Below, piece by piece: positions 133-13,908 of a stretch of DNA of 23,020 bases. The stretch covers positions 1-23,020 of IMG/VR virus record IMGVR_UViG_3300030109_002358; one strand, written 5' to 3'. Under the pieces are notes generated by a model, which did not search any database, was not told the DNA's origin, and saw only the letters and a list, made by a program, of their open reading frames with translations. Both the position numbers and the translations under genes were made by a program. The DNA is from a virus. How positions within the stretch are numbered: the stretch's first letter is position 1; every line of letters starts with the position of its first letter.

Positions 133-312
133 ATGTTCTACGAAATACAAAAAGTTGACGGTCTGAATAAAGCTTATTTTGTCGTTGTAGATAACTTGAA
201 CGATACCTCATCACGTCTTTTCGCATCTTACGCTGATGCGTGGATAGCGACGATGAAAACTGTCGGATCAGCACCAGACGGTGTTGATGTGCCTGCATCT
301 CAAATCGTTTAG
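133..312 (+). CDS. Small hypothetical protein, 59 aa
   Basis: I do not recognise this protein. It starts MFYEIQK with a good Shine-Dalgarno (AAGAAGGGAG) about ten bases before the ATG. It is soluble and of mixed charge: a beta-rich first half (YFVVVDN) is followed by a helix-like stretch with SYADAWIATMK. The pattern resembles many small phage proteins that begin with a YxIxK...Y.V strand, but no function follows from that. Its last codons and TAG stop lie inside the repeated structured element at 295-378, so the end of the gene and the element may have evolved together. Confidence 0.7.
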   Translation: MFYEIQKVDGLNKAYFVVVDNLNDTSSRLFASYADAWIATMKTVGSAPDGVDVPASQIV

Positions 313-378
313 CCACCTGCCACAGTGCCTGCATGTCGGGCACTGTATCGGTCTGACTAGACCGTTAATAATTTTACT
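295..378 (+). promoter_or_regulatory. Structured intergenic element, copy A (two hairpins)
   Basis: The element begins with GCATCTCAAATCGTTTAG, containing the stop codon of the preceding gene, followed by CCACCTGCC. Hairpin 1 pairs ACAGTGCC (322-329) with GGCACTGT (339-346) around the loop TGCATGTCG. Hairpin 2 pairs CGGTCT (349-354) with AGACCG (359-364) around GACT. An AT-rich tail, TTAATAATTTTACT, ends at 378 and the next gene starts at 397. Copy B at 4676-4760 has the same flanks and the same hairpin 2, but a completely different hairpin-1 stem of the same length. This points to a selected RNA structure. It is not a classical terminator because no U-run follows either hairpin. Possible roles are RNase III processing, mRNA stabilisation or protein binding. 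Confidence 0.75.
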
Positions 379-396
379 AAACCATGAGGAAATCCC

Positions 397-705
397 ATGA
401 ACAATACAGCAGAAATTTTTGTAGCAGAAACCGCGAAAGGTTATGAGGTCACCGTACCGAATTCGGTAGCAAGTGGCACCTTTCATTCTATGCATGACGG
501 TGATCAAATGAGTTTTGACACCTACAGAGTCGAACGAATCCTTGTTAGTTTGGGCCTGAAAGAAGACCCATTTTTCAAGCGGTGCCCAGTTACAAATGAG
601 TCAATTGAGCGTGGCGATTATTCCACATACTGCGCCTACTCAAACGAATTAGTCGTGCGCTTTTTCAATCTCGCGAATGCTAAGGCTTTCGCAACACTTC
701 TTTAA
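397..705 (+). CDS. Hypothetical protein, 102 aa
   Basis: The family is not recognised. The ATG at 397 follows ATGAGGAAATCCC, with GAGGA as the ribosome binding site. The sequence looks like a compact alpha/beta protein without membrane segments. A beta-rich N-terminal part is followed by HDGDQMSFDTYRVERIL, then a cysteine-containing middle (KRCPVT) and a helical end (FNLANAKAFATLL). There is no nucleotide-binding or zinc motif. It lies between copy A of the repeated leader element and a gene with a strong AGGAGGT site. The base composition is richer in G+C than the replication genes downstream. Confidence 0.7.
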   Translation: MNNTAEIFVAETAKGYEVTVPNSVASGTFHSMHDGDQMSFDTYRVERILVSLGLKEDPFFKRCPVTNESIERGDYSTYCAYSNELVVRFFNLANAKAFATLL

Positions 706-733
706 TCAAAATAATTTCATATAGGAGGTTAAT

Positions 734-931
734 ATGTCAGGTGCAACAGCAAAAGAATTTACAGAGTGGACAGCGAAAGCTAAGACTCTGTCCGTGGATT
801 CACTACGTTATGTAGTGCGAGATTGTAGAAATGCAGAACAAGCGATGCGGGGACATAACCCTGAGCGTGAGTGCTACTACGCCGATCAGGCTATGACATT
901 CGGAGATGAACTCCGTAGGAGGTTAAAGTAA
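734..931 (+). CDS. Small hypothetical protein, 65 aa
   Basis: This is a short, probably all-helical soluble protein. It begins MSGATAKEF and contains two alpha-helix-like segments: SVDSLRYVVRDCRNAEQAMRG, and the end with YADQAMTFGDELRRRLK. The start is secure, with AGGAGGT eight bases upstream of the ATG. The pattern of an S-x3-L-x3-I/V-xDC segment followed by a YxDQ...Y/F.DEL.RR end is something I remember from many small phage proteins without assigned function. Its TAA overlaps the ATG of the next gene (TAATG), which suggests translational coupling. Confidence 0.75.
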   Translation: MSGATAKEFTEWTAKAKTLSVDSLRYVVRDCRNAEQAMRGHNPERECYYADQAMTFGDELRRRLK

Positions 932-1413
932 TGAAAAAAATTAATATTCGGGGTTTCGATATCCCAACGCAAGTTGAATTTGACATGGTATCCAAGGGTA
1001 AATATTGGATACAAAATTTCTGGGGGTGCCGGGTGCGCATGGAGAAATCCGAACACGCCATTGGATGGGGTGACCAGTGGTTTGTCGAGGTGTACTACAA
1101 GAGGGAGAGAAAACCGCTATTCGCGAATCAATACCCCCCAAAAGTTGAGAGTTCAGAACCTAATGAACGCGATTGGGTGTCCACGTGCACCTTTCAACCA
1201 ACCCGGCGCGATTGCGTGGACTACCTATTGCGCATCGCGAAGGCTTCGCTGGAGGGTAAGGAGATTACTTTCAGGCATCGAGTGATGATCGATTCAGAAG
1301 GTATGTGGGCCGGTAAAGAATTGCGGCACCCATACTTCAAAACAGTTCTTAAACCTATCACCCGTAGGAGGGTAGCACATGAAAATACATCCTGTAATCA
1401 AGCCGCGCAATAA
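931..1413 (+). CDS. Hypothetical protein, 160 aa
   Basis: I do not recognise this protein. It starts at the ATG of a TAATG junction, with AGGAGG in the end of the previous gene. It is basic and rich in aromatic residues (KYWIQNFWGCRVRM, IGWGDQWFVEVYYKR), with a C-terminal part rich in Arg and His. The last 35 bases overlap the next gene. The end runs past the conserved-looking part, since GRRRVAHENTS is read over the next gene's ribosome binding site. The tail may therefore be an extension acquired by loss of a stop codon. No catalytic motif could be named. Confidence 0.65.
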   Translation: MKKINIRGFDIPTQVEFDMVSKGKYWIQNFWGCRVRMEKSEHAIGWGDQWFVEVYYKRERKPLFANQYPPKVESSEPNERDWVSTCTFQPTRRDCVDYLLRIAKASLEGKEITFRHRVMIDSEGMWAGKELRHPYFKTVLKPITRRRVAHENTSCNQAAQ

Positions 1414-1900
1414 GTCGCGGCACAATCGGTACTGTGGCCCGTGCGCTCTGTCTATTTTGACAGGTCAGGATACAGGCCAGTGCGCTTCAATAATCCGTTT
1501 ATTGTCTGGTGTGCATGCGGTAACAGGCACCAGCGCAGGTCAAATATTTAATGCATTAAATTGGTTTGGTTACCGTGTTGACAAGGCGCACTACCCAACC
1601 TTAATGCAGGAGGGCGAGTGGGATACAGGAGCACGGGCATCTAATGGTGAGCATGCCGAAAGCTCGACAATCGAAGCGCGTAAAAATTGGAAAAAATGCC
1701 CTACACTCGCCTCTTGGCTAAAACAGACCAAAGATATACGCACCACTGGGCGCGTGTTCCTAGTCTGCGCAGGGTGGCACTGGCAGGTCATCTCAGGCAG
1801 ACGTTATGCCTGTGGACTAACACAAGACATCGTGAGTGTACGTAAGGCACCGCATAGACGCGCTCGCGTAACAGGCGTATGGGAAATAATGAAAGTATAA
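1379..1900 (+). CDS. Papain-like/C39-like cysteine peptidase-fold protein, 173 aa
   Basis: The N-terminal motif RYCGPCALSILTG places a candidate nucleophile at Cys19 (with Cys22 next to it) at the start of a helix, as in C39-type and related papain-fold proteins. A hydrophobic strand, VFLVCAGWHWQVISGRRY, offers His134, and CGLTQD follows as a possible third polar residue. Between them are a helix-rich region and a stretch with SAGQIFNALNWFGYRV. I recall a similar layout, (Y/F)CGPxALS...(N/G)HW.V..G, in many marine phage hypothetical proteins. Whether it cuts a peptide, acts as a transglutaminase-like enzyme or is inactive cannot be told. It has no signal peptide, so action in the host cytoplasm is expected. 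The start is fixed by AGGAGGG eight bases upstream, although this overlaps the previous gene by 35 bases. Confidence 0.55.
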   Translation: MKIHPVIKPRNKSRHNRYCGPCALSILTGQDTGQCASIIRLLSGVHAVTGTSAGQIFNALNWFGYRVDKAHYPTLMQEGEWDTGARASNGEHAESSTIEARKNWKKCPTLASWLKQTKDIRTTGRVFLVCAGWHWQVISGRRYACGLTQDIVSVRKAPHRRARVTGVWEIMKV

Positions 1901-1909
1901 GGAGAAATT

Positions 1910-2161
1910 ATGATACAGCCTACATATTTTTCATCAAAGGAATTAGCAGAAAAATGGACGCTCGTTGCTGAGTACAAGCGAGCAGAGTTAATTGCGTATC
2001 GCTCGAATGATTCGGGTCTGCTCAGACTCATAGATATTGAGTCGGGGCATGATATTTTAGAGGGTGGCCCAAGGGGTAATCCATTCACAGCATCAATCGA
2101 AGACGCAAAGGCTAAGGCTTATGAATTGATCTATGGCAATTTGCCTTCCGATCTAGAGTGA
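1910..2161 (+). CDS. Hypothetical protein, 83 aa
   Basis: No family is recognised. AAGGAG sits a few bases before the ATG and the gene begins nine bases after the preceding stop. The protein is acidic overall. An N-terminal YFSSKELAEKW suggests a helix, the middle shows an alternating beta-like pattern (AELIAYRS, LLRLIDIESG), and the end is helical (SIEDAKAKAYELIYG). The size and the strand-strand-helix pattern could suit a small regulator or binding protein, but nothing specific supports that. The TGA stop is part of the hairpin element at 2159-2208. Confidence 0.7.
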   Translation: MIQPTYFSSKELAEKWTLVAEYKRAELIAYRSNDSGLLRLIDIESGHDILEGGPRGNPFTASIEDAKAKAYELIYGNLPSDLE

Positions 2162-2208
2162 CAGCTATATGGCATCCATGTGGTGCCATATGTCAGTCAT
2201 TCCGACTG
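2159..2208 (+). promoter_or_regulatory. Structured intergenic element, copy D (shares the hairpin loop)
   Basis: A long hairpin starts at the stop codon. TGAC (2159-2162) can pair with GTCA (2192-2195), AGCT bulges out, and ATATGGCA (2167-2174) pairs with TGCCATAT (2184-2191) around the loop TCCATGTGG. A smaller hairpin follows, CAGTC (2194-2198) with GACTG (2204-2208), partly competing with the outer pairing. The Shine-Dalgarno AAGGAG comes right after. The flanks differ from copies A-C, but the loop follows the same rule T-S-C-N-N-G-T-S-G as copies A and C. There is no U-run, so it is not a simple terminator. Confidence 0.6.
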
Positions 2209-2225
2209 AATATAAGGAGAATATT

Positions 2226-2483
2226 ATGAATACTTTCTTAGGAGTAACTGAAGAGGCCAAAGTAGCGGCTGTGAATGCGCTACTGAACTTGGTTCAAGAC
2301 GACGATGCGTTCTACCATATGACCGCCAAGAATGAGCTAAAAACTCGATTGAAGATTATTCAATTCGTAGCACCAATGGCGCATGCGGTGAACGGAGAAC
2401 ACGGCCTGTATCTGGCCGAAGAGTACGCACAAGAGCAGTTTGCAAGACGCAAAGAGGAGGGTGAGGCATACGCAAATCGCTAG
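2226..2483 (+). CDS. Hypothetical protein, 85 aa
   Basis: This is a small helical protein that I do not recognise. I chose the ATG at 2226 because AAGGAG stands at the right distance before it. An in-frame ATG at 2169 would start inside the hairpin of copy D, with no ribosome binding site. From 2226 the protein begins MNTFLGVTEEAKVAAVNALL and contains a helix-rich middle (KNELKTRLKIIQFVAPMAHAV). It ends with a charged helix (LAEEYAQEQFARRKEEGEAYANR would span it, residues 63-85). It is soluble, with no motif. Its TAG stop belongs to copy C of the repeated element, just as the stop of the 133-312 gene belongs to copy A. Confidence 0.75.
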   Translation: MNTFLGVTEEAKVAAVNALLNLVQDDDAFYHMTAKNELKTRLKIIQFVAPMAHAVNGEHGLYLAEEYAQEQFARRKEEGEAYANR

Positions 2484-2521
2484 TCACTTGTTACAGCGCA
2501 TCCCCGTGGTGCGTTGTATCG
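2466..2521 (+). promoter_or_regulatory. Structured intergenic element, copy C (single hairpin)
   Basis: The upstream part, GCATACGCAAATCGCTAG, including the stop codon, then TCACTTGTT, matches copies A and B with a few changes. Hairpin 1 pairs ACAGCGCA (2493-2500) with TGCGTTGT (2510-2517), including one G-U pair. The loop is TCCCCGTGG, and ATCG follows as in A and B. The second hairpin and AT-rich tail of A and B are missing; the gene at 2553 begins 31 bases later after AGGAG. The stem differs in sequence from A and B but keeps eight pairs. Confidence 0.65.
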
Positions 2522-2552
2522 TAAATGAGTCATCCATAGGAGAAGTTGGAGC

Positions 2553-2810
2553 ATGAGTAATATAAATATGCAAAACTGGCAGAACAAATCGGAATTGCAA
2601 TTGATGCAAGCTGTGTTTAGTCAAACACATAAGATGGTGCGTGGCTGTGAACCACCGCCTTTGCCTGTAGAAAGCTGGACTGATATTAATTGGTTGTCCA
2701 CTACTGCTGAAAAAATGCTAGATGAATATATAGACATGGCGGAAGACATGGAAAAAGTATTAGATAATATATCTGATGAAGTATTGAAGGAGATGAATAA
2801 TGGCAATTGA
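2553..2810 (+). CDS. Hypothetical protein, 85 aa
   Basis: No family is recognised. The start follows ATAGGAGAAG. The N-terminal half contains KSELQLMQAVFSQTHKMVRG and a proline-rich turn (CEPPPLPVESW). The C-terminal half is a strongly acidic amphipathic helix (DEYIDMAEDMEKVLDNISDE region) that could form a coiled coil. A 7-base inverted repeat, TGTGTTT-AGTC-AAACACA, lies in the coding sequence at 2612-2629. The last 11 bases overlap the next gene, so the two are probably translated together. Confidence 0.7.
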   Translation: MSNINMQNWQNKSELQLMQAVFSQTHKMVRGCEPPPLPVESWTDINWLSTTAEKMLDEYIDMAEDMEKVLDNISDEVLKEMNNGN

Positions 2811-3111
2811 AATAAGAGATGTTGCGTATCATCGCAATGGGATAGGAGGGCTACCATTCTATGTGGTCCTGTTTAACGACACTGATGAAGGGATGTTCAA
2901 TCAGGTTGCGACAATCGATGAAGACGGCACAGACTGCCGTGTCATCAATGCGGGACTGATTGTGACTGCCAGTGAGATTGGTAACCGCCACATGAATAAG
3001 TGGCGAGGTGACCAGTACCTATCCATGATTAAAGAGGCTATGCGGGAGCACAGACCCAGTGACTACGTTCGTATCTTTGAGGGAGAACAGGAGATTTCAG
3101 ATGTGGAGTAA
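2800..3111 (+). CDS. Conserved phage hypothetical protein, 103 aa (YHRNGxGG type)
   Basis: The N-terminus reads as a beta strand followed by AYHRNGIGGLPFYVVLFND. It has NAGLIVTASEIG in the middle and KWRGDQYLSMIKEAM near residue 80. I remember the combination V.YHRNGVGG..F.VV.F ... WRGD.Y...(I/L) as a common small phage protein without known function, so this is a family resemblance rather than a functional assignment. The WRGD-containing C-terminal helix looks amphipathic. Translation likely starts at 2800 after AAGGAG, overlapping the previous gene by 11 bases. Its own end overlaps the next gene by 11 bases. Confidence 0.7.
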   Translation: MAIEIRDVAYHRNGIGGLPFYVVLFNDTDEGMFNQVATIDEDGTDCRVINAGLIVTASEIGNRHMNKWRGDQYLSMIKEAMREHRPSDYVRIFEGEQEISDVE

Positions 3112-3277
3112 ATATATATTACCTATAAACCTTGTGGTTATGGGTACGCCACTTTTCTTTGGGGGAGTGGCATTGGTCCAAGAGGATTGGATCGGGGTGC
3201 CGGTTGCATTAATCGGTTTGGGATTGTATGTGGCTAGCTACACGCTAGTGCTTAGAATAAAAACATTTGACATTTAA
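3101..3277 (+). CDS. Small membrane protein, 58 aa, two transmembrane segments
   Basis: I start the gene at the ATG at 3101 rather than at an in-frame ATG at 3059. CAGGAG lies before 3101, and the longer version adds only a charged stretch inside the previous gene. The protein is MWSKYI followed by two hydrophobic helices (about residues 7-25 and 31-51) separated by QEDWIG, ending in LRIKTFDI. Two helices joined by a tight charged turn would suit a holin-like or membrane-anchored regulatory protein. There is no lysis gene nearby, so no role is proposed. Its TAA lies inside the hairpin at 3267-3301. Confidence 0.65.
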   Translation: MWSKYILPINLVVMGTPLFFGGVALVQEDWIGVPVALIGLGLYVASYTLVLRIKTFDI

Positions 3278-3314
3278 GCAAGTGAGCGTTTAAGATGTCA
3301 ATTCTTTAGTAGAA
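3267..3314 (+). promoter_or_regulatory. Intergenic hairpin at the stop codon (element E)
   Basis: TTGACAT (3267-3273) pairs with ATGTCAA (3295-3301). Inside this, TTAA (3274-3277) can pair with TTAA (3290-3293) with one bulged G, and GC pairs with GC around AAGTGA. The stop codon of the membrane protein gene is within the stem. A short TTCT-TTAGT-AGAA hairpin follows, then AGGAG for the next gene. The sequence is unrelated to copies A-D, but the order of stop codon in hairpin, second hairpin and Shine-Dalgarno is the same. The TTGACA inside the stem lacks a matching -10 box, so I do not call a promoter here. Confidence 0.45.
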
Positions 3315-3336
3315 ATCAACTCTTAGGAGAGTAAAA

Positions 3337-4227
3337 ATGAGTGTTTATGAAAATTTTGCAGGTATGCCATCACTTCCAGTTGAACTTGATTTTGATCCAG
3401 TTCGCGAACCAGCCAAGCGTATTGCGAAGAATGGTAACACGCAGATTATTGCTGGTGTGTTCAATATTATTAATCCTATGACGGACACTGTGATGACCGT
3501 ATCTAAATCTAAGCACAATCCAGTAAACTACGCGATTGCGTGGGAATCATTCCGTGCGGGTATTGAAGCTTCTGGCCTAGATACATCGGATATTGAATGT
3601 AAGTTTAATGTATCCCCAGATGGTAAGTCATACACTTGTGACATCATCTTGAAGCGATTCAACTTTGAGAAAGTTGTCGGTGAACCTGTGTACATGCGTT
3701 TTCGCATTACCGATTCGCATGACATGTCATTCGTCCGGGACTTCCTATGTGGGCTATGGAGGTTGTGGTGCACCAATGGCTGTTCATCTGTCCATGAGCA
3801 ATTGCGATTACGGGAGAAGCACACGCTAATGTCTGACCCCGAAAAAGTTGGATCAGTTGTAGCTGAGTATCCTGCCAGACTTGAGGCAGAAGCAAAATTA
3901 TATCCAATAATGATGAACACCAAAGTATCGCAGGATCAAGCTATCGACTTTATGGAGCGCAACCTTGCTACCTACCGCACTAATGCAGGTAAGCTGAAGC
4001 TTAATAACAAGACTCTAGAAGAATGCAATCGCATTTGGTCAATGTACAACTCAATGGGTAATACAGGCTACCGTCTGTATAATACTTTGACTCACATTGG
4101 CACACATGTGGAAGGTCGTGAGGGTACTAACATAACCCTTAAACAGGCCCGTATGGAACAGAAAATACAGGAAGTTGTTAGCCTTCCTGAGTTCAAGTCA
4201 CTGGTGGGTCTGCCACTAGCGGCTTAA
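3337..4227 (+). CDS. DUF932-family phage/plasmid-like protein, 296 aa
   Basis: The core matches what I know of DUF932 proteins. Strand-rich N-terminal halves lead to the hallmark FLCGLWRLWCTNGCSS (CTNG at residues 145-148), followed by a long helical C-terminal half. That half has repeated helices (ATYRTNAGKLKLN, RIWSMYNSMG) and an NTLTHIGTHVEG segment. DUF932 proteins are widespread on plasmids and phages and are usually predicted to be DNA-associated; their biochemical role is not established. The size is usual for the family. AGGAG lies before the ATG. It is the longest gene of the left region and is bracketed by two structured untranslated stretches, which suggests it may be expressed at a level different from its neighbours. 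Confidence 0.65.
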   Translation: MSVYENFAGMPSLPVELDFDPVREPAKRIAKNGNTQIIAGVFNIINPMTDTVMTVSKSKHNPVNYAIAWESFRAGIEASGLDTSDIECKFNVSPDGKSYTCDIILKRFNFEKVVGEPVYMRFRITDSHDMSFVRDFLCGLWRLWCTNGCSSVHEQLRLREKHTLMSDPEKVGSVVAEYPARLEAEAKLYPIMMNTKVSQDQAIDFMERNLATYRTNAGKLKLNNKTLEECNRIWSMYNSMGNTGYRLYNTLTHIGTHVEGREGTNITLKQARMEQKIQEVVSLPEFKSLVGLPLAA

Positions 4228-4233
4228 TATAAC

Positions 4234-4304
4234 AGTATCTATGGGGTTGTTTAGGTACTCAGGTAGGTAGGTATACCTTAACCCTGTTTACCCCCATAGA
4301 TACT
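4234..4304 (+). promoter_or_regulatory. 71-base stem-loop with 13 perfect pairs and competing inner pairings
   Basis: AGTATCTATGGGG (4234-4246) is perfectly complementary to CCCCATAGATACT (4292-4304). The 45-base inner part contains short AGGTA repeats (CAGGTAGGTAGGTATACC) and can fold further, TTAGGTA with TACCTTAA. GGGGTT (4243-4248) can instead pair with AACCCT (4280-4285), excluding the top of the long stem. It sits seven bases after the DUF932 stop and ends 30 bases before the next ATG, so it is a leader structure of the following gene. No U-run follows, which argues against intrinsic termination. Confidence 0.6.
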
Positions 4305-4334
4305 ATTCAAATTAGCTCTGAGGGAGTATTTAAA

Positions 4335-4646
4335 ATGAAGAGAGTAGACATACTAAAAATGCAGTTGCTAAATAGCAAAGGACGTTTTTTCACTGCTGAG
4401 TGGAAAGGCTTAGGTGCCATTGATGAAAACGGCAATTTGGTTATCGGCGAAATGATTAAGGCCAACTTTAAAGTTGTAGATATTATCGATGTATCATCTG
4501 ATCGCATCTGTGCGGCAGTCTACATACCTCGTACTGGTGACACCCTGTGCCTTAACTTTATGACTAATGCTGAAGGTGACTGCACCTATATAGCCAGCGA
4601 CAAGTCGAAGTTTGAAATGTCTGGCAAACAAGCATTCAAGTTTTAA
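4335..4646 (+). CDS. Hypothetical protein, 103 aa, probably beta-rich
   Basis: The protein is not firmly recognised. It starts MKRVDILKMQLLNSKGRFFTAEW. The segment NSKGRFFTAEWKGLG followed by alternating hydrophobic strands (NLVIGEMIKANFKVVDIID, ICAAVYIPRTG, TLCLNFM) suggests a small beta-barrel. It is loosely like the SH3-barrel phage proteins that carry a G(K/R)xFxVxF motif near the N-terminus; the match is weak. GAGGGAG lies upstream. The gene is preceded by the 13-pair stem-loop and followed by copy B of the repeated element, so it is the most heavily structured transcript segment in the window. Confidence 0.65.
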   Translation: MKRVDILKMQLLNSKGRFFTAEWKGLGAIDENGNLVIGEMIKANFKVVDIIDVSSDRICAAVYIPRTGDTLCLNFMTNAEGDCTYIASDKSKFEMSGKQAFKF

Positions 4647-4657
4647 TTACTGAGGGG

Positions 4658-4678
4658 TGTGTAACGTTTCTTTACGCA
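4658..4678 (+). promoter_or_regulatory. Short hairpin before copy B
   Basis: TGTGTAA (4658-4664) pairs with TTACGCA (4672-4678), including one G-U pair, around CGTTTCT. Its 3' arm abuts and slightly overlaps the beginning of copy B. No U-run follows. It may simply add to the structure of the 130-base gap between the genes at 4335 and 4777. Confidence 0.35.
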
Positions 4679-4760
4679 TCTTAAATCGTTTAGTCACCTG
4701 CCCATGTACATCCTTTGAGGTGTACATGATCGGTCTGACTAGACCGTTAATAATTTTACT
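4676..4760 (+). promoter_or_regulatory. Structured intergenic element, copy B (two hairpins)
   Basis: The element begins GCATCTTAAATCGTTTAG, differing from copy A at one base, although no gene ends here; the upstream gene has stopped 30 bases earlier. CACCTGCC follows. Hairpin 1 pairs CATGTACA (4703-4710) with TGTACATG (4721-4728) around TCCTTTGAGG. The next 32 bases, including the CGGTCT-GACT-AGACCG hairpin and the AT-rich tail, are identical to copy A. The gene at 4777 follows after GAGGATG. Identity outside, total replacement inside a preserved 8-pair stem, is the best evidence for RNA-level selection. Confidence 0.75.
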
Positions 4761-4776
4761 GAGGATGTAACAGAAA

Positions 4777-5022
4777 ATGATTAAACGTATTCATGTAAAT
4801 CAACATCACGTTAAACACAACGCTAAGAATCCAGAAGATCCGAAGCCTGTGTTTACGGTGAAGACATCTAGATCGAATACAAAGGGTGACACTGTCTACG
4901 TTCCGGGTGGAGTCAGCTTTGTGTACAGCCCCGACAAACCATTGTCGTGTGGGGCAAAAGTGTGGGCAGAGACTACAGGATCTGTAGTTGTGTACAACGG
5001 AGAGGAGGTGATCGATCTATAA
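4777..5022 (+). CDS. Conserved phage hypothetical protein, 81 aa (RIHVNQH...SCGAxVW type)
   Basis: The N-terminus KRIHVNQHHVKHNAK and the C-terminal half with VYSPDKPLSCGAKVWAETTG correspond to a short protein I have often seen in marine phage genomes. The pattern is K-R-I-H-V-N-Q, basic stretch, V-T-V-K-T-S, and S-C-G-A-x-V-W. Its function is unknown. The alternation of strands and the single Cys in SCGA suggest a small beta protein, and the basic N-terminus could bind nucleic acid, but that is inference. The start follows GAGGATG and copy B of the leader element. It is the last gene of the G+C-richer left region. Confidence 0.7.
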   Translation: MIKRIHVNQHHVKHNAKNPEDPKPVFTVKTSRSNTKGDTVYVPGGVSFVYSPDKPLSCGAKVWAETTGSVVVYNGEEVIDL

Positions 5023-5034
5023 CACTTGACATGC

Positions 5035-5059
5035 CTTTTAAAATATTTCTTTTAAAATA
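5035..5059 (+). repeat. Tandem CTTTTAAAATA repeat upstream of the integrase gene
   Basis: Two identical 11-base units, 5035-5045 and 5049-5059, are separated by TTT, and each contains the palindrome TTTTAAAA. The second unit runs into the Shine-Dalgarno (AATAGGAG) of the integrase gene. A TTGACA at 5026-5031 stands just before the repeats, but no convincing -10 box lies 16-18 bases downstream. The arrangement could be an operator for control of the integrase or an arm-type binding site. It could also be chance in AT-rich DNA. Confidence 0.4.
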
Positions 5060-5074
5060 GGAGACTGTGAAATA

Positions 5075-6082
5075 ATGAGTGATCTAACTGAGCAAGCTGA
5101 AGAGCACAAGAAGATGCAACAGGCTAGTATGGTTGTTGAAGTTAAAGGAACGATGTTAAAACATCTTGTAGATGCCTATTTAATATCTCGTGACTTTAAA
5201 CGTGTATCAGCATCTCAAGATCAGTACCGATACTGGTTGCGTGTGCTGTGTGAAACATTATATTTTGATAGTAATGTTGGACAATTGAAGTATAAGAGGT
5301 TGACTGCCCCGGAAGCACAAATAATCTATGATATCCTATCAGATCGCGGTATCACTTTTGCAAATAGGATAATTGCCGTAGCTAGAAAGATGTTTAACTA
5401 CGCTATAAAATATGGAATTGTAGATAATAATCCTTGGTCTAGCATCCAAGTAATTACGCCTAAACCGCGTAGGGTAACGTGGCAACCCCAAGATGTACAT
5501 GCCTTCCTTAAAACCGCATACAGCAGGTTTGAGACACGTTCGCTGGGGTTAGTCGTGCAAATGGCATATGAATGGGCACAGCGTATTGGCGACATGCGAA
5601 TGCTTACTTGGGATAAAATTGACTTTGAAAATAAGGTATTGCATTTAGAACAATCAAAACGTAGGGCGGTTGTGCATTTACCAATTTCAGATGATTTAAT
5701 GTACATGCTGAATCAACAGAATGGTGAGTTTGATTGGCAACCCTACGTGGCACCAAATGTGAACGCTAAAACTAACAACGGCTACAAGCCATACGGATTG
5801 GAGGTAATATCTCGTGTCGCAAAGAAAATTATTATTAAGGCGGGACTTGATCCTGAACTCAGACTTGCTGACCTTAGACGCACGGCGACAACGGAAATGG
5901 TGGAAGCAGGTGTCGGCATTGCTCAAATCATGCAAGTTACAGGACATCAATCACCGCAATCTGTCACGCCGTATATGAAGAACACTTTGACAGGTGCTAA
6001 AAACGCCTGTACACTCCGTTCTGTTCACATGGCAGGTGGTACACCTATGGTAGAGGACATAAAGCGTGTTAAAAATCAGTGA
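5075..6082 (+). CDS. int: Tyrosine recombinase (phage integrase), 335 aa
   Basis: The protein cuts and rejoins DNA at att sites through a covalent phosphotyrosine. The N-terminal ~120 residues look like a SAM-like core-binding domain. The catalytic domain has Arg170 in EWAQRIGDMRMLTW, Lys195 in the LEQSKRR hairpin, Arg268 in LADLRRTATTEMVEAG, His291 in QVTGHQSPQS and Tyr300 in TPYMKNT. All essential residues are present, except that box II has Ala265 where His is usual. The length fits phage integrases. There is a good AGGAG before the ATG. The last 17 bases overlap the primase gene, so the integrase is co-translated with replication genes rather than sitting in a separate lysogeny block. No excisionase or repressor gene was recognised in the window. 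Confidence 0.9.
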   Translation: MSDLTEQAEEHKKMQQASMVVEVKGTMLKHLVDAYLISRDFKRVSASQDQYRYWLRVLCETLYFDSNVGQLKYKRLTAPEAQIIYDILSDRGITFANRIIAVARKMFNYAIKYGIVDNNPWSSIQVITPKPRRVTWQPQDVHAFLKTAYSRFETRSLGLVVQMAYEWAQRIGDMRMLTWDKIDFENKVLHLEQSKRRAVVHLPISDDLMYMLNQQNGEFDWQPYVAPNVNAKTNNGYKPYGLEVISRVAKKIIIKAGLDPELRLADLRRTATTEMVEAGVGIAQIMQVTGHQSPQSVTPYMKNTLTGAKNACTLRSVHMAGGTPMVEDIKRVKNQ

Positions 6083-6875
6083 GTATTTAAATTCTCTAGA
6101 TATACCAGTTGATGGAACCTACAGGGGTAACTGCCCAAACTGCTATGGTAAAAATACTTTTACTGTGACGAATGACAAAGGCAATATTATTTATAATTGC
6201 TACAGGAATAGTTGCGGGATTAAAGGCACTAAACATCTCCGGATGGGTGCCTCTCAAGTTAAATCTATTATATCTAATATTGATAGCGTATCTTTTGATG
6301 AATATGAAACTGTTATGCGTCAATCCTATGAGATGCCACCCTACCTATCTGTTATGAAGCCTCGCAATGAGGCTGTATCTAACTTTATGCTTACATGGCA
6401 TATTAACCCTGACGATGTGTTCTACGACATTAGACAGGACCGTGTAGTTTTTCCGATATATCATAATCGACTCTTAGTAGATGCTGTGGGTAGGTCTATA
6501 GGTAATAGAAAACCTAAGTGGTTACGTTATTCTTCTTCACCTATACCTTACATGTATGGTGACGGGGATACTTTTGTATTAGTCGAAGATGCTATAAGTG
6601 CTTATGTTGTAGGTAATATATTTAATAACGTAGTAGGCGTAGCATTATTGGGCACACAGTTAACTACTTTTCATAAATGGTTTTTTGATAAGTATTATAA
6701 GTATAATAAGTATATTATTGCCTTGGACTATGATGCATTCAACAAAACTCCTAAAATGGTTAAAGAGTTGCGCGGGTGCATTAACACCGTGTATGGTTTA
6801 AAACTGTATCACGATTTAAAGTATTGCAATGTTCAAGATATGGATAATTTAAAGGAGATGATAAATGAATGTTGA
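6066..6875 (+). CDS. Phage primase: zinc ribbon plus TOPRIM domain, 269 aa
   Basis: This is the primase half of a T7 gp4-like system, making RNA primers for DNA synthesis. An N-terminal zinc ribbon has Cys23, Cys26, Cys45 and Cys50 (CPNC and CYRNSC). The centre contains RQDRVVFPIYHN and VDAVGRSIG, typical of the RNA-polymerase-like subdomain. The TOPRIM motifs are Glu174 (VLVEDAISAY), Asp221 and Asp223 (ALDYDA), and a late acidic stretch around Asp258/Asp260. No RecA-like helicase domain is attached; a separate helicase gene lies 2.4 kb downstream. Translation starts at a GTG inside the end of the integrase gene, with AGAGGA upstream. That start gives the N-terminal MLKISEYL before the ribbon. 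Confidence 0.88.
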   Translation: MLKISEYLNSLDIPVDGTYRGNCPNCYGKNTFTVTNDKGNIIYNCYRNSCGIKGTKHLRMGASQVKSIISNIDSVSFDEYETVMRQSYEMPPYLSVMKPRNEAVSNFMLTWHINPDDVFYDIRQDRVVFPIYHNRLLVDAVGRSIGNRKPKWLRYSSSPIPYMYGDGDTFVLVEDAISAYVVGNIFNNVVGVALLGTQLTTFHKWFFDKYYKYNKYIIALDYDAFNKTPKMVKELRGCINTVYGLKLYHDLKYCNVQDMDNLKEMINEC

Positions 6876-7023
6876 AAGAATAGTTTTATTTGATATGGCT
6901 TCTTTTGAAACTACCTCGTATTACTGGATTATGGCTATCACGGGTTGGGGGATTGTTTTAGCCTACGCATTTTTGCTTTTTAAGTTATGTTCTTTTGTTA
7001 TGGGGGGAAAGGTAAAACAATGA
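6865..7023 (+). CDS. Small single-pass membrane protein, 52 aa
   Basis: The ATG at 6865 follows AAAGGAGATG and overlaps the end of the primase gene by 11 bases. The 52-residue product starts MNVERIVLFDMASFETTS and continues with one long hydrophobic stretch from about residue 19 to 46 (YYWIMAITGW, then GIVLAYAFLLFKLCSF). It ends in the basic GGKVKQ, giving a likely cytoplasmic C-terminus. I do not recognise it. Its stop overlaps the next ATG (ATGA). Small membrane proteins in such positions can be superinfection-exclusion or host-takeover factors, but nothing here decides that. Confidence 0.65.
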   Translation: MNVERIVLFDMASFETTSYYWIMAITGWGIVLAYAFLLFKLCSFVMGGKVKQ

Positions 7024-7316
7024 AAGATTGGACCTGCGAAATAGAAATTAAAGGATGGTCAGAGACAGACATGGATGAGCTACAGAGCATGTGGAAAAAG
7101 GGCAAAACAGTACGGGAGATAGCAGAAAAACTTAAGCGCACTCCTAGCTCTGTAAAAGGATATGTTTGCAGGAATAGAGAAACACTAAATTTAAAAAGCA
7201 GAATAAATTCTACCGGACGGCCCCGATCAAACAACCCTAAGTTTGATAAACAATGGTATGGTTGCGTTCCATGCCGCCACTGGACGATCACCAAACCTTG
7301 GAGTAAAGTTTTATGA
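7020..7316 (+). CDS. Helix-turn-helix protein, GcrA/SANT-like, 98 aa
   Basis: I start it at the ATG at 7020, which has GGGGGGAAAGG upstream and forms an ATGA junction. An in-frame ATG at 6987 would add 11 residues with no ribosome binding site. Residues 13-50 read W-S-E-T-D-M-D-E-L, then LWKKGKT-like QSMWKKGKTVREIAEKLKR and TPSSVKGYVCRNRE. This has the shape of a SANT/Myb or GcrA-type DNA-binding domain (W...L..LW..G.S..EIA..L.RT..SV...). The C-terminal half is basic, with GRPRSNNPK and a CVPCRHW motif. A role in transcription control of host or phage genes, or in DNA packaging, is possible. GcrA itself is alphaproteobacterial, which agrees with a marine alphaproteobacterial host but does not prove it. 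Confidence 0.6.
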   Translation: MKDWTCEIEIKGWSETDMDELQSMWKKGKTVREIAEKLKRTPSSVKGYVCRNRETLNLKSRINSTGRPRSNNPKFDKQWYGCVPCRHWTITKPWSKVL

Positions 7317-7663
7317 TCTTTAGAGATGAAGAAATGAAAAATAAGCAAATAGCAATAACAGGTAAAGATTATTATTTTTATGAGGAGTTTAAACAAGCTG
7401 AGTATACTCCTGACATTCAGATATTCAGTTCTCCGCAGAGTGTACACAATGTGATAAGCAGTATATTCTGGCTGGACGAAGAGGGTATGGAGGGTGAGTA
7501 TCTTAATGTTCTTGAGGATATTGCCAATAACAACGAAAATGACCTTATCTCTTCCGATATTAATATTGGTGGTTGCTTCTACAATTTGTTTAACTTAATT
7601 GCATCTGTTCAGTTGCTCGTCGAGGAGAGAGATTTACTGAAGAAAAAACTGGAGGCACGATGA
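7313..7663 (+). CDS. Hypothetical protein, 116 aa, acidic
   Basis: I do not recognise this family. The start codon overlaps the previous stop in an ATGA junction; a second in-frame ATG at 7334 is also possible and would remove seven residues. The protein has a first part with KDYYFYEEFKQAEY and a long acidic middle (WLDEEGMEGEYLNVLEDIAN). The C-terminal helix SVQLLVEERDLLKKKLEAR looks like a coiled coil. There are no membrane segments or metal sites. Confidence 0.65.
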   Translation: MIFRDEEMKNKQIAITGKDYYFYEEFKQAEYTPDIQIFSSPQSVHNVISSIFWLDEEGMEGEYLNVLEDIANNNENDLISSDINIGGCFYNLFNLIASVQLLVEERDLLKKKLEAR

Positions 7664-7782
7664 GTTATCCAAAAACAAAGTGTATGTACTGCCGTACTAA
7701 AGATGCAGTCGCTGTTGAAAAAGATACATTCTTTTATTGTGCTTTGTGCTGGTTAAAAAAATATAGGGAGAAAATAAAATGA
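7660..7782 (+). CDS. 40-residue zinc-ribbon-like protein
   Basis: The gene is joined by ATGA overlaps to both neighbours. The product has a CxxC pair at residues 8 and 11 (KCMYC) and a second at 27 and 30 (YCALC), 15 residues apart, with a basic C-terminal tail (WLKKYREKIK). Four cysteines in two CxxC knuckles of this spacing are typical of a minimal zinc ribbon. Such mini-ribbons in phages can bind nucleic acids or host proteins such as RNA polymerase; no specific partner can be named. The internal AGGGAG serves the next gene. Confidence 0.65.
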   Translation: MSYPKTKCMYCRTKDAVAVEKDTFFYCALCWLKKYREKIK

Positions 7783-8018
7783 GTAAAAAACCACCAGTTG
7801 TTTATGCCTACGATGGGACAGGGCTAACAGGCGAATCAGCCTATCTGTGGTCACTGTTCTTAGCACACGAAGCAGACATGGCGGATGATTATGTAGCCTA
7901 CGATAAGTGGCGACACCTCGTAGATTCGTTAAAGCCTCGCAGTGATGTGCCAGTGCCTGCTTCTTTTTATTGTGGGGATCTCATGGATGCAATCGAGGGG
8001 TACAATAAAAATGATTAA
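7779..8018 (+). CDS. Hypothetical protein, 79 aa
   Basis: No family is recognised. The ATG lies in an ATGA junction with the preceding gene and has TAGGGAG upstream. The product starts MSKKPPVVYAYDGTG, then has an aromatic helical segment (ESAYLWSLFLAHEADM) and an acidic stretch with DDYVAYDKWRHLVDSL. It is soluble and acidic, with one Cys near the end (YCGDLMDAIEGY). Its last bases overlap the next gene by eight bases, and that gene's GAGGGG ribosome binding site is inside this coding sequence. Confidence 0.65.
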   Translation: MSKKPPVVYAYDGTGLTGESAYLWSLFLAHEADMADDYVAYDKWRHLVDSLKPRSDVPVPASFYCGDLMDAIEGYNKND

Positions 8019-8280
8019 ACTATTAAACCCTGCATACAATGGGCTAAAGAATGCACCACCGGAATACAAGTTTTTGCTGTCCATATTACTTGCATCGATG
8101 TGGTGCATAGCGTTTGGTATATTTACTGCTGAATTATTATTTATTGGATACAATATCATAGGGCATATCGCCTTGATCTTTTGTGTATTTGTTACATGGA
8201 GTGCTTTTAAGTACACTAAAAAAAGATTTGACCCCGCAACATCAAATAAAGTTAAATGGGATATGGAGCGAGAAGCGTGA
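8011..8280 (+). CDS. Small membrane protein, 89 aa, two transmembrane segments
   Basis: I place the start at the ATG at 8011, preceded by GAGGGG. A longer in-frame reading from 7942 would run deep into the previous gene and lacks a binding site. Residues 20-42 (KFLLSILLASMWCIAFGIF region) and 44-68 (LLFIGYNIIGHIALIFCVF region) are two hydrophobic helices with a very short loop. A basic C-terminal tail (KYTKKRFDPATSNKVKW) should face the cytoplasm. The hairpin topology and size would fit a class II holin, but there is no endolysin nearby, so this remains a guess. The TGA overlaps the next ATG. Confidence 0.6.
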   Translation: MIKLLNPAYNGLKNAPPEYKFLLSILLASMWCIAFGIFTAELLFIGYNIIGHIALIFCVFVTWSAFKYTKKRFDPATSNKVKWDMEREA

Positions 8281-8456
8281 TGATAAATTATTACGATGTA
8301 TACTATTATGGGAAACTTGTGATATCTAATGTTCGTGCAGTAAGCGAGGATGATGCAGTAGCGCAAGTCTACGTGAGGGATAAGCAAGCATCAGCATCAG
8401 CATACACGGGAAGATCTAAAGAAAATTACACAGCAACAAGGAAAAATTATGAATAA
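8280..8456 (+). CDS. Hypothetical protein, 58 aa
   Basis: The gene is taken from the ATG at 8280, at a TGATG junction with the preceding gene; GGAGCGAGAAG lies upstream. An in-frame ATG at 8256 adds eight residues without better support. The product is rich in tyrosine at its N-terminus (INYYDVYYYGK). It continues with VRAVSEDDAVAQVYVRDK, like a strand-helix unit seen in small phage proteins where an ASxxDA helix follows two strands. A run of GCATCA repeats at 8387-8402 encodes the QASASAY part. No function is evident. Confidence 0.6.
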   Translation: MINYYDVYYYGKLVISNVRAVSEDDAVAQVYVRDKQASASAYTGRSKENYTATRKNYE

Positions 8457-8688
8457 GACAGCGTATGAAATTGTCGTTGGGGGAAATCTGCCTCGTATAG
8501 GTTCCGGTTATCGCCTTGTCTATGCATCAGAGGGACGCAAGTGGGTTCACCTAACTACCCTCCAAGGAGATGGTAAAACTAGGCTATCTAAAATAGCATG
8601 GGGCAAGATCAAAAAACGTGGCACACTAGATGAGAGAGATATCAAGCGTGGCTTACGCAAGGCAAAGAGGGCGCTGTACAGAAAATGA
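8449..8688 (+). CDS. Small basic protein, 79 aa
   Basis: I do not recognise this strongly basic protein. It overlaps the previous gene by eight bases, with AAGGAAAAA before its ATG. The first half has beta-like strands (YEIVVGGNLPRIG, YRLVYASEGRKWVHLTTL) and the second half is Lys/Arg-rich (KTRLSKIAWGKIKKRG and DIKRGLRKAKRALYRK). The charge and the pattern of a small beta fold plus basic helix suggest nucleic-acid binding. ATGA overlap with the following gene. Confidence 0.65.
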   Translation: MNKTAYEIVVGGNLPRIGSGYRLVYASEGRKWVHLTTLQGDGKTRLSKIAWGKIKKRGTLDERDIKRGLRKAKRALYRK

Positions 8689-8891
8689 ATATTTTTATTC
8701 TAGTAATTAGTATATGGGGTTATACTGGCACAGAGTGGGAATACATAGGCAATCAAGCAGTCTATCAAAAGCCTATGACACTTGCCGAATGTAAGAGTAT
8801 AATCAATAATTGGAAAAAGTTTGAGGACAATGAATTTTATAAGATCTCATTAGATTGTACTTCAGCAACAGAGTCAGGATTACTGCTATGA
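8685..8891 (+). CDS. Conserved small phage protein, 68 aa, hydrophobic N-terminus
   Basis: The product starts MNIFILVISIWGYTGTEW, continues YIGNQAVYQKPMTLAEC and then NNWKKFEDNEFYKISLDC. I remember similar short proteins in marine phage and prophage sequences, with a hydrophobic strand or short signal, G-x-T-G-x-E-W-x-Y-I-G-N, an (M)T-x-x-x-C motif and two conserved cysteines (Cys36 and Cys58 here). Their function is unknown. The first nine residues are too short for a normal signal peptide, though the cysteine pair would fit a periplasmic or exported location. The gene is bounded by ATGA overlaps on both sides. Confidence 0.6.
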   Translation: MNIFILVISIWGYTGTEWEYIGNQAVYQKPMTLAECKSIINNWKKFEDNEFYKISLDCTSATESGLLL

Positions 8892-9061
8892 AAAAGCAAA
8901 AGAAACACTGGAAAGAAGCGATGAATGAAAGGAATCAAGATTGGATAGACAGTCGTGAAAAACCTAAAGGAATTATAGGAAAAGCGGTATCTTCTACTTA
9001 TCGAGATAATTGGGAAAAAATATTTAGCAATAAAAAGGATGTTAAAAATGATAATGAATAA
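8888..9061 (+). CDS. Small charged protein, 57 aa
   Basis: It is read from the ATG at 8888, in an ATGA junction with the previous stop. An in-frame ATG at 8855 would overlap the previous gene more and is not needed. The product starts MKKQKKHWKEAMNERNQDW and is highly charged throughout, ending NKKDVKNDNE. It has a predicted helix in the first half and no recognisable motif. The ribosome binding site is only AGGA. Because it fills the gap between overlapping neighbours exactly, I think it is real. Confidence 0.55.
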   Translation: MKKQKKHWKEAMNERNQDWIDSREKPKGIIGKAVSSTYRDNWEKIFSNKKDVKNDNE

Positions 9062-9263
9062 CTCACCAGAGGCAACTATTAACTTTGTATCTTCTGATTT
9101 AAAAGATTGTTTGTCAGACTTTATGAACTGCTACAACAGTAGACAAAAGGGGGATAATTCTGCTGTCTTTTATGATGATAAAGAGAAAGATATAGAAGAA
9201 ATACAAAAGCATATTGACGCACTTGATTTAATCATACGCTTTTACGATGAGGTGCCATCTTAA
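9048..9263 (+). CDS. Hypothetical protein, 71 aa
   Basis: Several ATG codons are in frame at 9039, 9048 and 9054. I choose 9048 because AAGGA at 9035-9039 is then about eight bases upstream, while it is too close to 9039. The product is acidic and helical, with DLKDCLSDFMNCYNSRQ in the first half and EEIQKHIDALDLIIRFYDEV at the end, where a helical hairpin or coiled coil is plausible. No family is recognised. The stop codon overlaps the helicase start (TAATG), so it may set the translation rate of the helicase. Confidence 0.6.
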   Translation: MIMNNSPEATINFVSSDLKDCLSDFMNCYNSRQKGDNSAVFYDDKEKDIEEIQKHIDALDLIIRFYDEVPS

Positions 9264-10474
9264 TGGAGTTAGCTATAATCAAAAGCTTACTAAATAAAGA
9301 GTTCTACGATTCTCATAAAGGCTTTAACTGCCCTCGTAGTTTGTTTTCTACTGAAGTAAGCAAAATAAAAACAGCAATTGACATGGCTATGGACAAATAC
9401 AATCGAGATCTTACAGTGGATGAAATAGAAGGTTTGTTTGTTGCGTCTGAACCTACGCTTACCGCTCCTCAAAAGGCTGGATATAGAGGTATATTTCAAA
9501 AGCTACGTAATCAAAATGCTATAAGCACTGATGTAGCTCAAGAAATATTAAGTAAACTTTTTCAGCGGCATATTGGTGATGAGGTTTCAGACATCGCCAT
9601 GTCTTATGTAAATGGCAAACAGAATACGCTAGAACCCTTACGAAGAGTGCTGGAACAGTATAAAGATAATTTCTTGCCTGAATTAAATATTGAATGGGAT
9701 GATCTTGAAATAGAAACACTACTTGAGAAAAATGATATAGAAGCACGTTGGCATTTTAATGTGCCAACTCTTGCTACCCGCATCGAAGGAGTTAATGATG
9801 GGCATCTGATTGTTGTGGGTGCAAGGCCCAACACAGGTAAAACTTCTTTTCATGCAAGTATAATCGCTGGTCCAGATGGCTTTGCACATCAAGGGGCAAA
9901 GTGTGTAATCCTTTGTAATGAAGAAGGGACACACAGAGTCGGGGCACGTTACTTAACAGCGGCATCTGGTATGACACTTAAAGAAATTAAAAACAGCCCC
10001 CGCACAGCACAAAAACGCTGGGCTAAGGTCAAAGAAAATATTAAAATTAAAGATGCTACTGGCAGAGATATGGCGTGGGTTGAAGTTGTGTGTAAAACAT
10101 ATAGCCCAGACATCTTAGTTATCGATATGGGGGATAAGTTTGCTAGTGATCAATCACACGAGGGATTAAAGAATTGCGCTATCCACGCTAGGCAAATTGC
10201 AAAAGAGCATGGATGTGCAGTGTTTTATATGTCTCAGCTATCTGCTGAAGCGGAAGGTAAAATAGTATTAAATCAATCTATGATGGAAGGCAGTAAAACT
10301 GGTAAAGCATCAGAGGCAGATCTAATGTTATTAATTAGTAAAAATCCTTCCGTTGAAGGACAAGAAGAAGATGATTATCAAAGACACATTAACTCAGTAA
10401 AAAATAAATTGACGGGTTGGCATGGGTACATTACTTGTTCATTATTGAATCGTACAGGCAGGTATGAGGTATAA
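9263..10474 (+). CDS. Replicative DNA helicase, DnaB-like RecA ATPase, 403 aa
   Basis: This is the hexameric helicase that unwinds the fork and probably partners with the separate primase. The first ~150 residues are helical and poorly conserved, like a DnaB N-terminal domain. The RecA core begins near residue 165, with Walker A GARPNTGKT at 186-194. Glu220/Glu221 lie in VILCNEEG, Walker B is ILVIDMGD with Asp288, the SQLS motif is at 325-328, and a C-terminal GRYE region holds the arginine and tyrosine seen in the phage members. It is somewhat shorter than bacterial DnaB. It has no primase domain, unlike T7 gp4. Translation starts at the ATG of a TAATG junction with GAGGTG upstream. The next gene starts two bases after its stop. 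Confidence 0.88.
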   Translation: MELAIIKSLLNKEFYDSHKGFNCPRSLFSTEVSKIKTAIDMAMDKYNRDLTVDEIEGLFVASEPTLTAPQKAGYRGIFQKLRNQNAISTDVAQEILSKLFQRHIGDEVSDIAMSYVNGKQNTLEPLRRVLEQYKDNFLPELNIEWDDLEIETLLEKNDIEARWHFNVPTLATRIEGVNDGHLIVVGARPNTGKTSFHASIIAGPDGFAHQGAKCVILCNEEGTHRVGARYLTAASGMTLKEIKNSPRTAQKRWAKVKENIKIKDATGRDMAWVEVVCKTYSPDILVIDMGDKFASDQSHEGLKNCAIHARQIAKEHGCAVFYMSQLSAEAEGKIVLNQSMMEGSKTGKASEADLMLLISKNPSVEGQEEDDYQRHINSVKNKLTGWHGYITCSLLNRTGRYEV

Positions 10475-10476
10475 GC

Positions 10477-10974
10477 ATGGCTCATAGTAAAACTAATGGA
10501 AGGTACTATAAGGATGATCCAGAAGCAGTTCGCGCTAGGGACGCTAAAAGAATGTACGTCAATGGTAAGGAAGTATCTAAGTTACATCCATTGCATAAGT
10601 CTGGGCGTTATGCATCTTGGCAGGATGCTTGGAACAATAATGAGTTAGAGAAGAAAGCAATTGATGGGCATGTGTATGCCATAGGAAATCCTGCTTGGCC
10701 TGCTTGGATTAAGATAGGAAAAGCTGTAGATGCAATGGACAGACTGAATGCATATCAAACATCATCACCACACCGTGATTATTTTATTATCCACAGCAGG
10801 TACTTTTCTAACCGAAGCAATGCAGAATCAATTGCACATGAAACATTGATCGATGAAGGATTCCAGAAGATTAACGAATGGTTTATGATTTCACATGACA
10901 GAATCAAAAATCTATTAGATAATATAGATATCACAGCTAGGCAACAGGATTTATTTTATGAAAGTAGTTCTTGA
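10477..10974 (+). CDS. GIY-YIG-like (T5orf172-type) nuclease-fold protein, 165 aa
   Basis: The central domain reads GHVYAIGNPAWPAWIKIGKAV (VYAIG at 66-70 and IKIGK at 78-82). These stand for the two GIY-YIG strands, followed by Arg89 in DAMDRLNAYQT and by Glu117 in NAESIAHETL. A C-terminal NEWFMIS strand closes the fold. This is the order of the T5orf172/MUG113 branch of the GIY-YIG superfamily, whose members are found as stand-alone phage proteins and homing-type nucleases. The N-terminal 60 residues are basic and may bind DNA. It lies between the helicase and DNA polymerase genes, a common insertion place for homing endonucleases, but both flanking genes are whole. Its end overlaps the polymerase gene by 17 bases. 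Confidence 0.7.
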   Translation: MAHSKTNGRYYKDDPEAVRARDAKRMYVNGKEVSKLHPLHKSGRYASWQDAWNNNELEKKAIDGHVYAIGNPAWPAWIKIGKAVDAMDRLNAYQTSSPHRDYFIIHSRYFSNRSNAESIAHETLIDEGFQKINEWFMISHDRIKNLLDNIDITARQQDLFYESSS

Positions 10975-13009: not shown

Positions 13010-13011
13010 AA

Positions 13012-13908
13012 ATGACAAATCAAATAACTACGCTTGACTCTGGAAACTTTGCTGAAATGGCAAAGGCTATGGGCATGATGCAAGATATGGAAATAGATGG
13101 CAAATCCAAAGCTTCTACACTTCCCCGTCTTCGCATTTGGAATCAAGCAGTAATGGGTCAGGTGGAGATTAAGGGCAAGATGAAGAATATGGAGGTAGTG
13201 CCTGCTGGTATGTACCGTCTTCAAATGCCTGATGACACATATGTATATGCAGAAAGAGCACATCTACGTATATTTGTACAGCGTTTTATGTACAAGCGTT
13301 ATGACTCAAACAATAATATGTATATTAAAACACTGATGGCAGAAGATCTAAAAGGAGACCTTAAAGATAATACAGGTGGCCTTAACTGTGGTAAACCCGC
13401 TGGTTACATTAAAGATTTTCAAGCATTGCCTGAAGACACGAAAACATTAATTAAACAGATTAAAAGAGTACGTGTGCTACTAGGCGAAGTTACACTCGAA
13501 AATGCGGTTGATGGAGAAGGTAATGAAGTATCTTCAGAAATAATACAACCTTTCATTTGGGAAATAGACAATAGAGATGCTTTTAAAACAATGGGTGAAC
13601 CATTCACTCAGTTAGCAAAGCAACGCCGCTTACCAGTACAGCATTCTATTGATTGCGATACTGAAGAACGGTCTATGGCAACTGGTGTTAAATTTTATGT
13701 ACCAACTGCAAGTGTTGACTTAACTAAAACAATTGATCTTTCTGAAGACGATCAGAAAAAGTTTAGTGACTTTATAGAGTGGATTAATAATTACAATGAC
13801 TATATTGTTTCTGCTTGGAATGAAAAGCGCACAGAAAAACTTTCTGCTGAAGATGCAGAGTTAGTTAATGACTTTGTTGAAATAGAGGCTGATGAGACAG
13901 ACGGATGA
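13012..13908 (+). CDS. Conserved replication-module protein, candidate single-strand DNA-binding protein, 298 aa
   Basis: The family is not named with certainty. I have seen the same kind of protein following polA in marine phages: an N-terminal LAELAxAMGM-like helix, a P-R-L-R-I strand and VVPAGMYRL, LRIFVQRFMYKRY, GGLNCGKPAGYIKDF and VRVLLGEVTL. The beta-rich middle, the aromatic and basic strands, and a very acidic C-terminus (NDFVEIEADETDG) are the usual signs of a single-strand DNA-binding protein with an interaction tail. It is preceded by AAGGAGGT, the best Shine-Dalgarno in the window, which suits a protein needed in large amounts. A recombination or DNA-annealing factor is an alternative. 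No other SSB candidate is visible nearby. Its stop overlaps the nuclease start (ATGA). Confidence 0.55.
   Translation: MTNQITTLDSGNFAEMAKAMGMMQDMEIDGKSKASTLPRLRIWNQAVMGQVEIKGKMKNMEVVPAGMYRLQMPDDTYVYAERAHLRIFVQRFMYKRYDSNNNMYIKTLMAEDLKGDLKDNTGGLNCGKPAGYIKDFQALPEDTKTLIKQIKRVRVLLGEVTLENAVDGEGNEVSSEIIQPFIWEIDNRDAFKTMGEPFTQLAKQRRLPVQHSIDCDTEERSMATGVKFYVPTASVDLTKTIDLSEDDQKKFSDFIEWINNYNDYIVSAWNEKRTEKLSAEDAELVNDFVEIEADETDG

Follow-up and report, generated by a model that had tools for sequence, protein, structure and literature searches.

We examined a stretch of 23,020 nucleotides (nt) from a virus (IMG/VR record IMGVR_UViG_3300030109_002358, positions 1 to 23,020), referred to below as the window. 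Its DNA polymerase is 62% identical to that of Puniceispirillum phage HMO-2011 and 53-60% identical to those of several Roseobacter phages, and the window is therefore a fragment of an HMO-2011-type marine phage. In its early region, among small genes and upstream of the integrase gene (5075-6082) and the replication genes, it carries four copies, A to D, of an element of about 65 nt. Neither the window nor the element has a near or distant DNA match among cultured phages.

Copies A (302-369) and B (4683-4751) lie 4.4 kb apart on the plus strand. An initial annotation had delimited them as 295-378 and 4676-4760 and described near-identical flanks around an exchanged stem, which direct reading confirms. 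They agree at 93% of positions in their 27-nt 5' parts and at 100% in the 32 nt starting at 347 and 4729; an exact repeat of this length within 23 kb is not due to chance. The apical stems are unrelated. Since the flanks are common to both copies, this stem (P2) has been exchanged as a block. It consists of 10 pairs including a U.G, not of 8 as first counted. In copy A, the 5' arm of the outer stem P1 (309-315) is followed by a conserved CCTGCC (316-321), P2 (322-331/337-346), a conserved ATCGGTC (347-353) and the 3' arm of P1 (354-360). A third pairing, P3 (349-353/360-364), corresponds to the CGGTCT-GACT-AGACCG hairpin and has bases in common with P1. The same parts are found in copy B (P1 4690-4696/4736-4742, P2 4703-4712/4719-4728, P3 4731-4735/4742-4746). 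Both copies fold better than shuffled sequence (-24.5 kcal/mol, z -2.66 for A; -26.4 kcal/mol, z -5.0 for B).

The P1 5' arm of copy A contains the TAG stop codon of a 59-amino-acid open reading frame (133-312, plus strand), whose last codons also lie in the element. The gene upstream of copy B terminates at 4646, and the bases of B that match the coding end of A are non-coding. The initial annotation had read these bases correctly, but the stop codon is not peculiar to copy A: in most copies of the family that we describe below, the stop codon of the preceding gene overlaps the 5' arm of P1 or lies directly next to it. Just before copy B (4647-4682), a sequence resembling a ribosome-binding site, ACTGAGGGGTGTG, is followed by GCATCTTAAATCGTTTAG, and it looks as if the body of a gene had been lost at this place.

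Copies C (2148-2213) and D (2473-2521), also on the plus strand, are recognized by a covariance model that was trained without them (E = 9.5e-4 and 1e-4, respectively; copies A and B, which belong to the training set, score 6.1e-19 and 9.5e-18). Copy C is divergent in sequence and retains all three pairings (P1 2156-2162/2196-2202, P2 2167-2176/2182-2191, P3 2194-2198/2204-2208, here CAGTC/GACTG), with a fold of -23.4 kcal/mol (z -3.2); its P1 contains the TGA stop codon of gene 1910-2161. In copy D, a P1 5' arm with the stop codon TAG (2481-2483) is followed by TTG, P2 (2493-2502/2508-2517) and ATCG, and the P3 half is missing or degenerate. The gene that ends in copy D (2223-2483, plus strand, 86 amino acids) has homologues accompanied by the element in unrelated contigs (tblastn; 89% identity in L264, 83% in L269 and 63% in L187). 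At the DNA level, the segment 2215-2521, which comprises the ribosome-binding site, the gene and copy D as far as ATCG, matches L264 (84%) and L187 (73%) in blastn. These contigs are otherwise unrelated to the window, and the similarity stops at 2521. Another gap between genes (4234-4305) holds a 13-pair stem, AGTATCTATGGGG/CCCCATAGATACT, whose loop is long and structured; it is not a member of the element family.

A scan with the pattern AAATCG...TAGYCACYTG returned mostly chance matches. Only L187 proved real, a contig with an unrelated primase-helicase and five copies of the element at gene ends, and it served as entry point to the family. The covariance model was trained on 22 distinct copies collected with wider patterns. 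In total we found about 55 copies in 19 viral contigs, unrelated phages among them, in clusters of one to five: 44 in 13 whole contigs, 7 in five further contigs (L271 duplicates one of the others) and four in the window. The carriers belong to about five groups, and within some of these the members are nearly identical, so that these counts are not numbers of independent events. Throughout the carriers the element sits at gene borders. A search of related phages with a covariance model, as the initial annotation had proposed, did find it in three contigs whose early genes are close to those of the window (L267, L268 and L270), but the element is not general in the HMO-2011-type group. No copy was detected in 87 HMO-2011-type loci, which are mainly short contigs centred on the polymerase. 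The 80 contigs of polymerase relatives, most of them too short to extend into the early region, were without it, and so were the early regions of 7 cultured relatives searched with filters off. Because relatives by DNA polymerase lack the element, it appears to track the early genes and not the phage core.

The element was described at the outset as phage-specific, and nothing contradicts this: every accepted copy comes from a viral contig, and although one scan of bacterial genomes gave 92 pattern hits, the model accepted none of the 80 loci examined. The exact pattern of the 23-nt hairpin had no match in viral contigs. Rfam 15, with which the window was searched to E 5 and the carrier loci were also scanned, gave no family match at the elements; in the carriers, the sole hit at an element was to mir-921, below threshold and on the strand opposite to one copy. 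A description of the motif was not found in the open-licence papers to which our literature search was limited. The element thus looks like a new, previously undescribed structured RNA family.

The minimum-energy fold is a long hairpin built of P1, a short CUG/CGG helix and the 10-pair P2 as cap. P1 forms here between the 5' flank, whose P1 arm lies around the TAG, and the loop region of the second hairpin. Over the 22 distinct copies, the 20 pairs of the long hairpin show standard pairing in 97.3% of cells, and 14 of them have changed on both sides. Double changes occupy 89 cells as compared with 35.5 in shuffles, and the covariation score of 0.583 (0.243 in shuffles) was reached by none of 500 shuffles. 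When the pairing was slid out of register, only 27-35% of cells remained paired. Compensatory changes thus exceed both controls, as they should in a conserved structured RNA. The initial suggestion of selection on RNA structure is borne out, and changes in the stems do not break pairing as often as they keep it. P1 alone occurs in 15 arm combinations that stay complementary, for example TAGTCA/TGACTA, CAGTGT/ACACTG, CACTGT/ACAGTG and TAGTGA/TCACTA. In 30 distinct copies, P1, the middle helix, P2 and P3 together contain 68 G.U pairs, 30 of which are one invariant U.G, and 5 A.C pairs. Since G.U pairs far exceed A.C pairs, it is the transcribed strand that folds or is under selection.

All of these 30 copies have retained P3: 25 are fully Watson-Crick, with variants that include a double change to CGATC/GATCG, four have one G.U, and one has a G.U and an A.C. 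That P3 matters too is suggested by the conservation of GACCG, which lies mostly outside P1 and the middle helix. On average, the state containing P2 and P3 is 3.8 kcal/mol less stable than the long hairpin. The two-hairpin structure originally proposed is therefore one of two conserved folds, but neither the sole nor the most stable one. Given their shared bases, P1 and P3 would either form alternately or coexist, with the P3 loop (5-6 nt) then pairing to the 5' flank as a pseudoknot. In either case, the fold is conserved on the transcribed strand, and P1, P2 and P3 have all been retained through sequence change.

On its downstream side, the element is followed by a ribosome-binding site and a start codon, usually within about 15-40 nt. 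In about one third of the distinct copies, a separate terminator-like hairpin with a T run lies further downstream.

The carriers harbor another RNA at their gene borders. Rfam identifies type II hammerhead ribozymes in the same operons and in the same orientation as the elements, in L187 (1933-1999), L253 (9805-9870 and 10147-10210) and L224 (3231-3294). In L224 a descriptor adds two more to give three (hits in L370 are the same contig again). Like the elements, these hammerheads overlap the upstream stop codon. The descriptor finds 5 of them (6 with L187) in 218 kb of carriers, one in 2.9 Mb outside the carriers and none in sixteen unrelated viral loci (147 kb). The single outside case is in Roseobacter phage CRP-7 (L364, MK613349), where a type II hammerhead (570-633) covers the stop codon of a small unannotated open reading frame; being cultured, CRP-7 offers a ready system for mapping cuts at gene borders.

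The two RNAs also replace each other. An alignment of homologues of one gene family shows a hammerhead at the upstream border in L187, L253 and L224 and the element at the homologous border in L209, L219, L226 and L229. The gene-adjoining sequence TTAATAGTCTAGGGAGAC, for example, is preceded by a hammerhead in L187 and by the element in L209. A search for further copies of this gene returned only known contigs, and none among cultured phages. The elements themselves are not hammerheads. They have no CUGAUGA, GAAA or cleavage-triplet core, and they had no hammerhead hit in the Rfam scan, in which the true hammerheads of the same loci do score. As the element takes the place of hammerheads at a homologous border, it most likely does the same job. 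According to an earlier proposal, prophage hammerheads on either side of single genes divide long transcripts into mRNAs of gene length, and cleavage was demonstrated for several of them (PMC3088659).

We therefore propose, with a probability of about 60%, that this structured RNA acts in cis as punctuation at the gene borders of polycistronic early phage mRNAs, where it would mark a cut in the transcript, much as hammerheads do. A processing module at gene borders was already envisaged in the initial annotation, and the interchange with hammerheads lends this idea independent support, with cleavage being inferred. A type II hammerhead cuts between its two hairpins and leaves ends with stem III and then stem I. 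P2 and P3 follow each other in the element as these two hairpins do, and for this reason the long transcript would be cut between P2 and P3. The upstream mRNA would then end in the P2 hairpin and the downstream mRNA begin with the P3 hairpin, ends that would resemble those of the hammerhead products. If the folds alternate, the long hairpin would be present before cutting and P2 and P3 afterwards; in a pseudoknot, the P3 loop would be paired to the 5' flank. A ribosome halted at the overlapping stop codon would mask the P1 5' arm and shift the balance between the folds. As cutter, a host double-strand RNase of the RNase III type would be our first guess, and cleavage by the RNA itself the more novel option.

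Several points weigh against this proposal. The border swap involves three hammerhead contigs and a few element contigs, some of them closely related. As the elements lack the hammerhead core, any shared function would be one of position, not of descent. A pure processing site does not need the terminator-like hairpins found downstream of some copies, and at least one copy, the P3-deficient copy D, may be inactive. The fold could also act at 3' ends in some way that involves no cut, for instance by binding a protein or protecting the mRNA.

Within the proposed function, the agent could be host RNase III acting as in phage T7: the enzyme would cut at the internal loops of the long P1-P2 hairpin, and P3 would then fold at the new 5' end. 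We consider this possible, with the odds somewhat against it. RNase III is the simplest agent because the long hairpin resembles the T7 signal R1.1, a structured RNA of 60 nt that lies between the early genes 1.0 and 1.1 and has an asymmetric internal loop (PMC6121014). With about 20 pairs in two parts, internal loops and a length of about 60 nt, the element is an interrupted hairpin of around two helical turns at a gene border, as such a signal should be. Its stems vary while pairing stays, and the P2-plus-P3 state is near in energy to the long hairpin. However, the strict conservation of CCUGCC/UCGGUC and of the P3 partner exceeds what a double-strand cutter is expected to need.

The exchange with hammerheads at a homologous border would also fit self-cleavage. 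The element would then be a small self-cleaving ribozyme of a new class, known so far from phages only and interchangeable with type II hammerheads as stop-codon-overlapping gene punctuation. The CCUGCC and NUCGGUC strands would form the core, shaped by a pseudoknot between P1 and the P3 loop. It is small, its three stems vary freely around a short conserved core, and it matches no Rfam ribozyme family. In addition, its hairpin loop is fully complementary to a flank, comparable to the pairing of loop I with the 3' tail that is common in type II hammerheads (PMC3088659). Yet double pairing duty explains most of the core (CUG with CGG, CGGUC with GACCG) and leaves few unpaired invariant bases, and among nested folds a plain interrupted hairpin is the most stable. 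This option seems doubtful to us.

It is less likely still that the element is a terminator or attenuator, in which P3 or the long hairpin would end transcription under control of the translation of the upstream gene. Two competing folds and an overlapping stop codon would suit a switch that senses translation, but no T run follows P3, and where terminator-like hairpins are present they are separate and further downstream. A simple intrinsic terminator was set aside, as the tails are AT-rich but mixed and a scan of the window shows no terminator-like site at A or B.

The units of gene and element shared by otherwise unrelated phages (window 2215-2521, L264 and L187) point to mobility. In L267 (8050-8436), an extra gene of 116 amino acids lies between 11-nt direct repeats, TCGAACTAGTC, the second of which extends into the P1 arm; L268 is without this gene and retains one repeat and the element. 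Such mobility, like the exchange of P2 between copies A and B, fits recombination at repeated RNA elements and would not need a dedicated recombinase. That each gene with its element is instead a mobile cassette, moved by a tyrosine recombinase at an attC-like folded DNA site, is very improbable despite these units, the presence or absence of a gene between repeats and the integrase gene in the window, since ordinary recombination at repeats can give the same gains and losses, the copies have no common crossover point and the excess of G.U over A.C indicates selection on the transcribed strand where a fold of bottom-strand DNA predicts the reverse; we set the bottom-strand version aside on this count.

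Two observations in other contigs may be noted here. The viral contig L096 carries close to 30 tRNA genes (1166-13625), including a predicted selenocysteine tRNA (5609-5699), and the element-carrying contig L266 has a Mu-gpT-DE RNA (Rfam) on the opposite strand at 2170-2227.

The element bears on the question of why phages place self-cleaving ribozymes between genes. That an RNA with a different core occupies the same borders over stop codons, and swaps with hammerheads ahead of one homologous gene, indicates that processing or its end structures are the selected trait, and not the hammerhead itself. About 30 distinct sequences of about 65 nt each form a candidate set for in vitro cleavage assays. 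The movement of gene-plus-RNA units between unrelated marine phages is also relevant to the gain and loss of small early genes.

Among known systems, integron attC sites are folded, have a variable apical stem and mark the 3' ends of small genes that follow one another. The element shares these traits; in contrast to attC, its pairing statistics favor RNA of the coding strand, and it is found with no integron integrase and no common crossover point. RAGATH motifs are RNAs near genes that accompany twister and hammerhead ribozymes. The element likewise keeps genomic company with hammerheads, but it matches no Rfam RAGATH family and was found from one phage sequence, not in a gene-association screen. 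With T7 RNase III signals such as R1.1 it has in common an interrupted hairpin of about 60 nt at early-gene borders. It differs from them in its conserved internal-loop sequence, in the conserved alternative hairpin P3 and in its spread among unrelated phages with hammerheads alongside, and cutting by RNase III is here a proposal. From type II hammerheads (RF02276) it is set apart by the missing core (CUGAUGA...GAAA...UH) and Rfam hit, by a loop that pairs with the 5' flank and not with the 3' tail, and by cleavage that we infer. Nevertheless, both RNAs overlap the upstream stop codon and precede the next ribosome-binding site on the same strand of the same operons, and both consist of two successive hairpins with freely variable stems, the loop of the second being able to pair with a flank.

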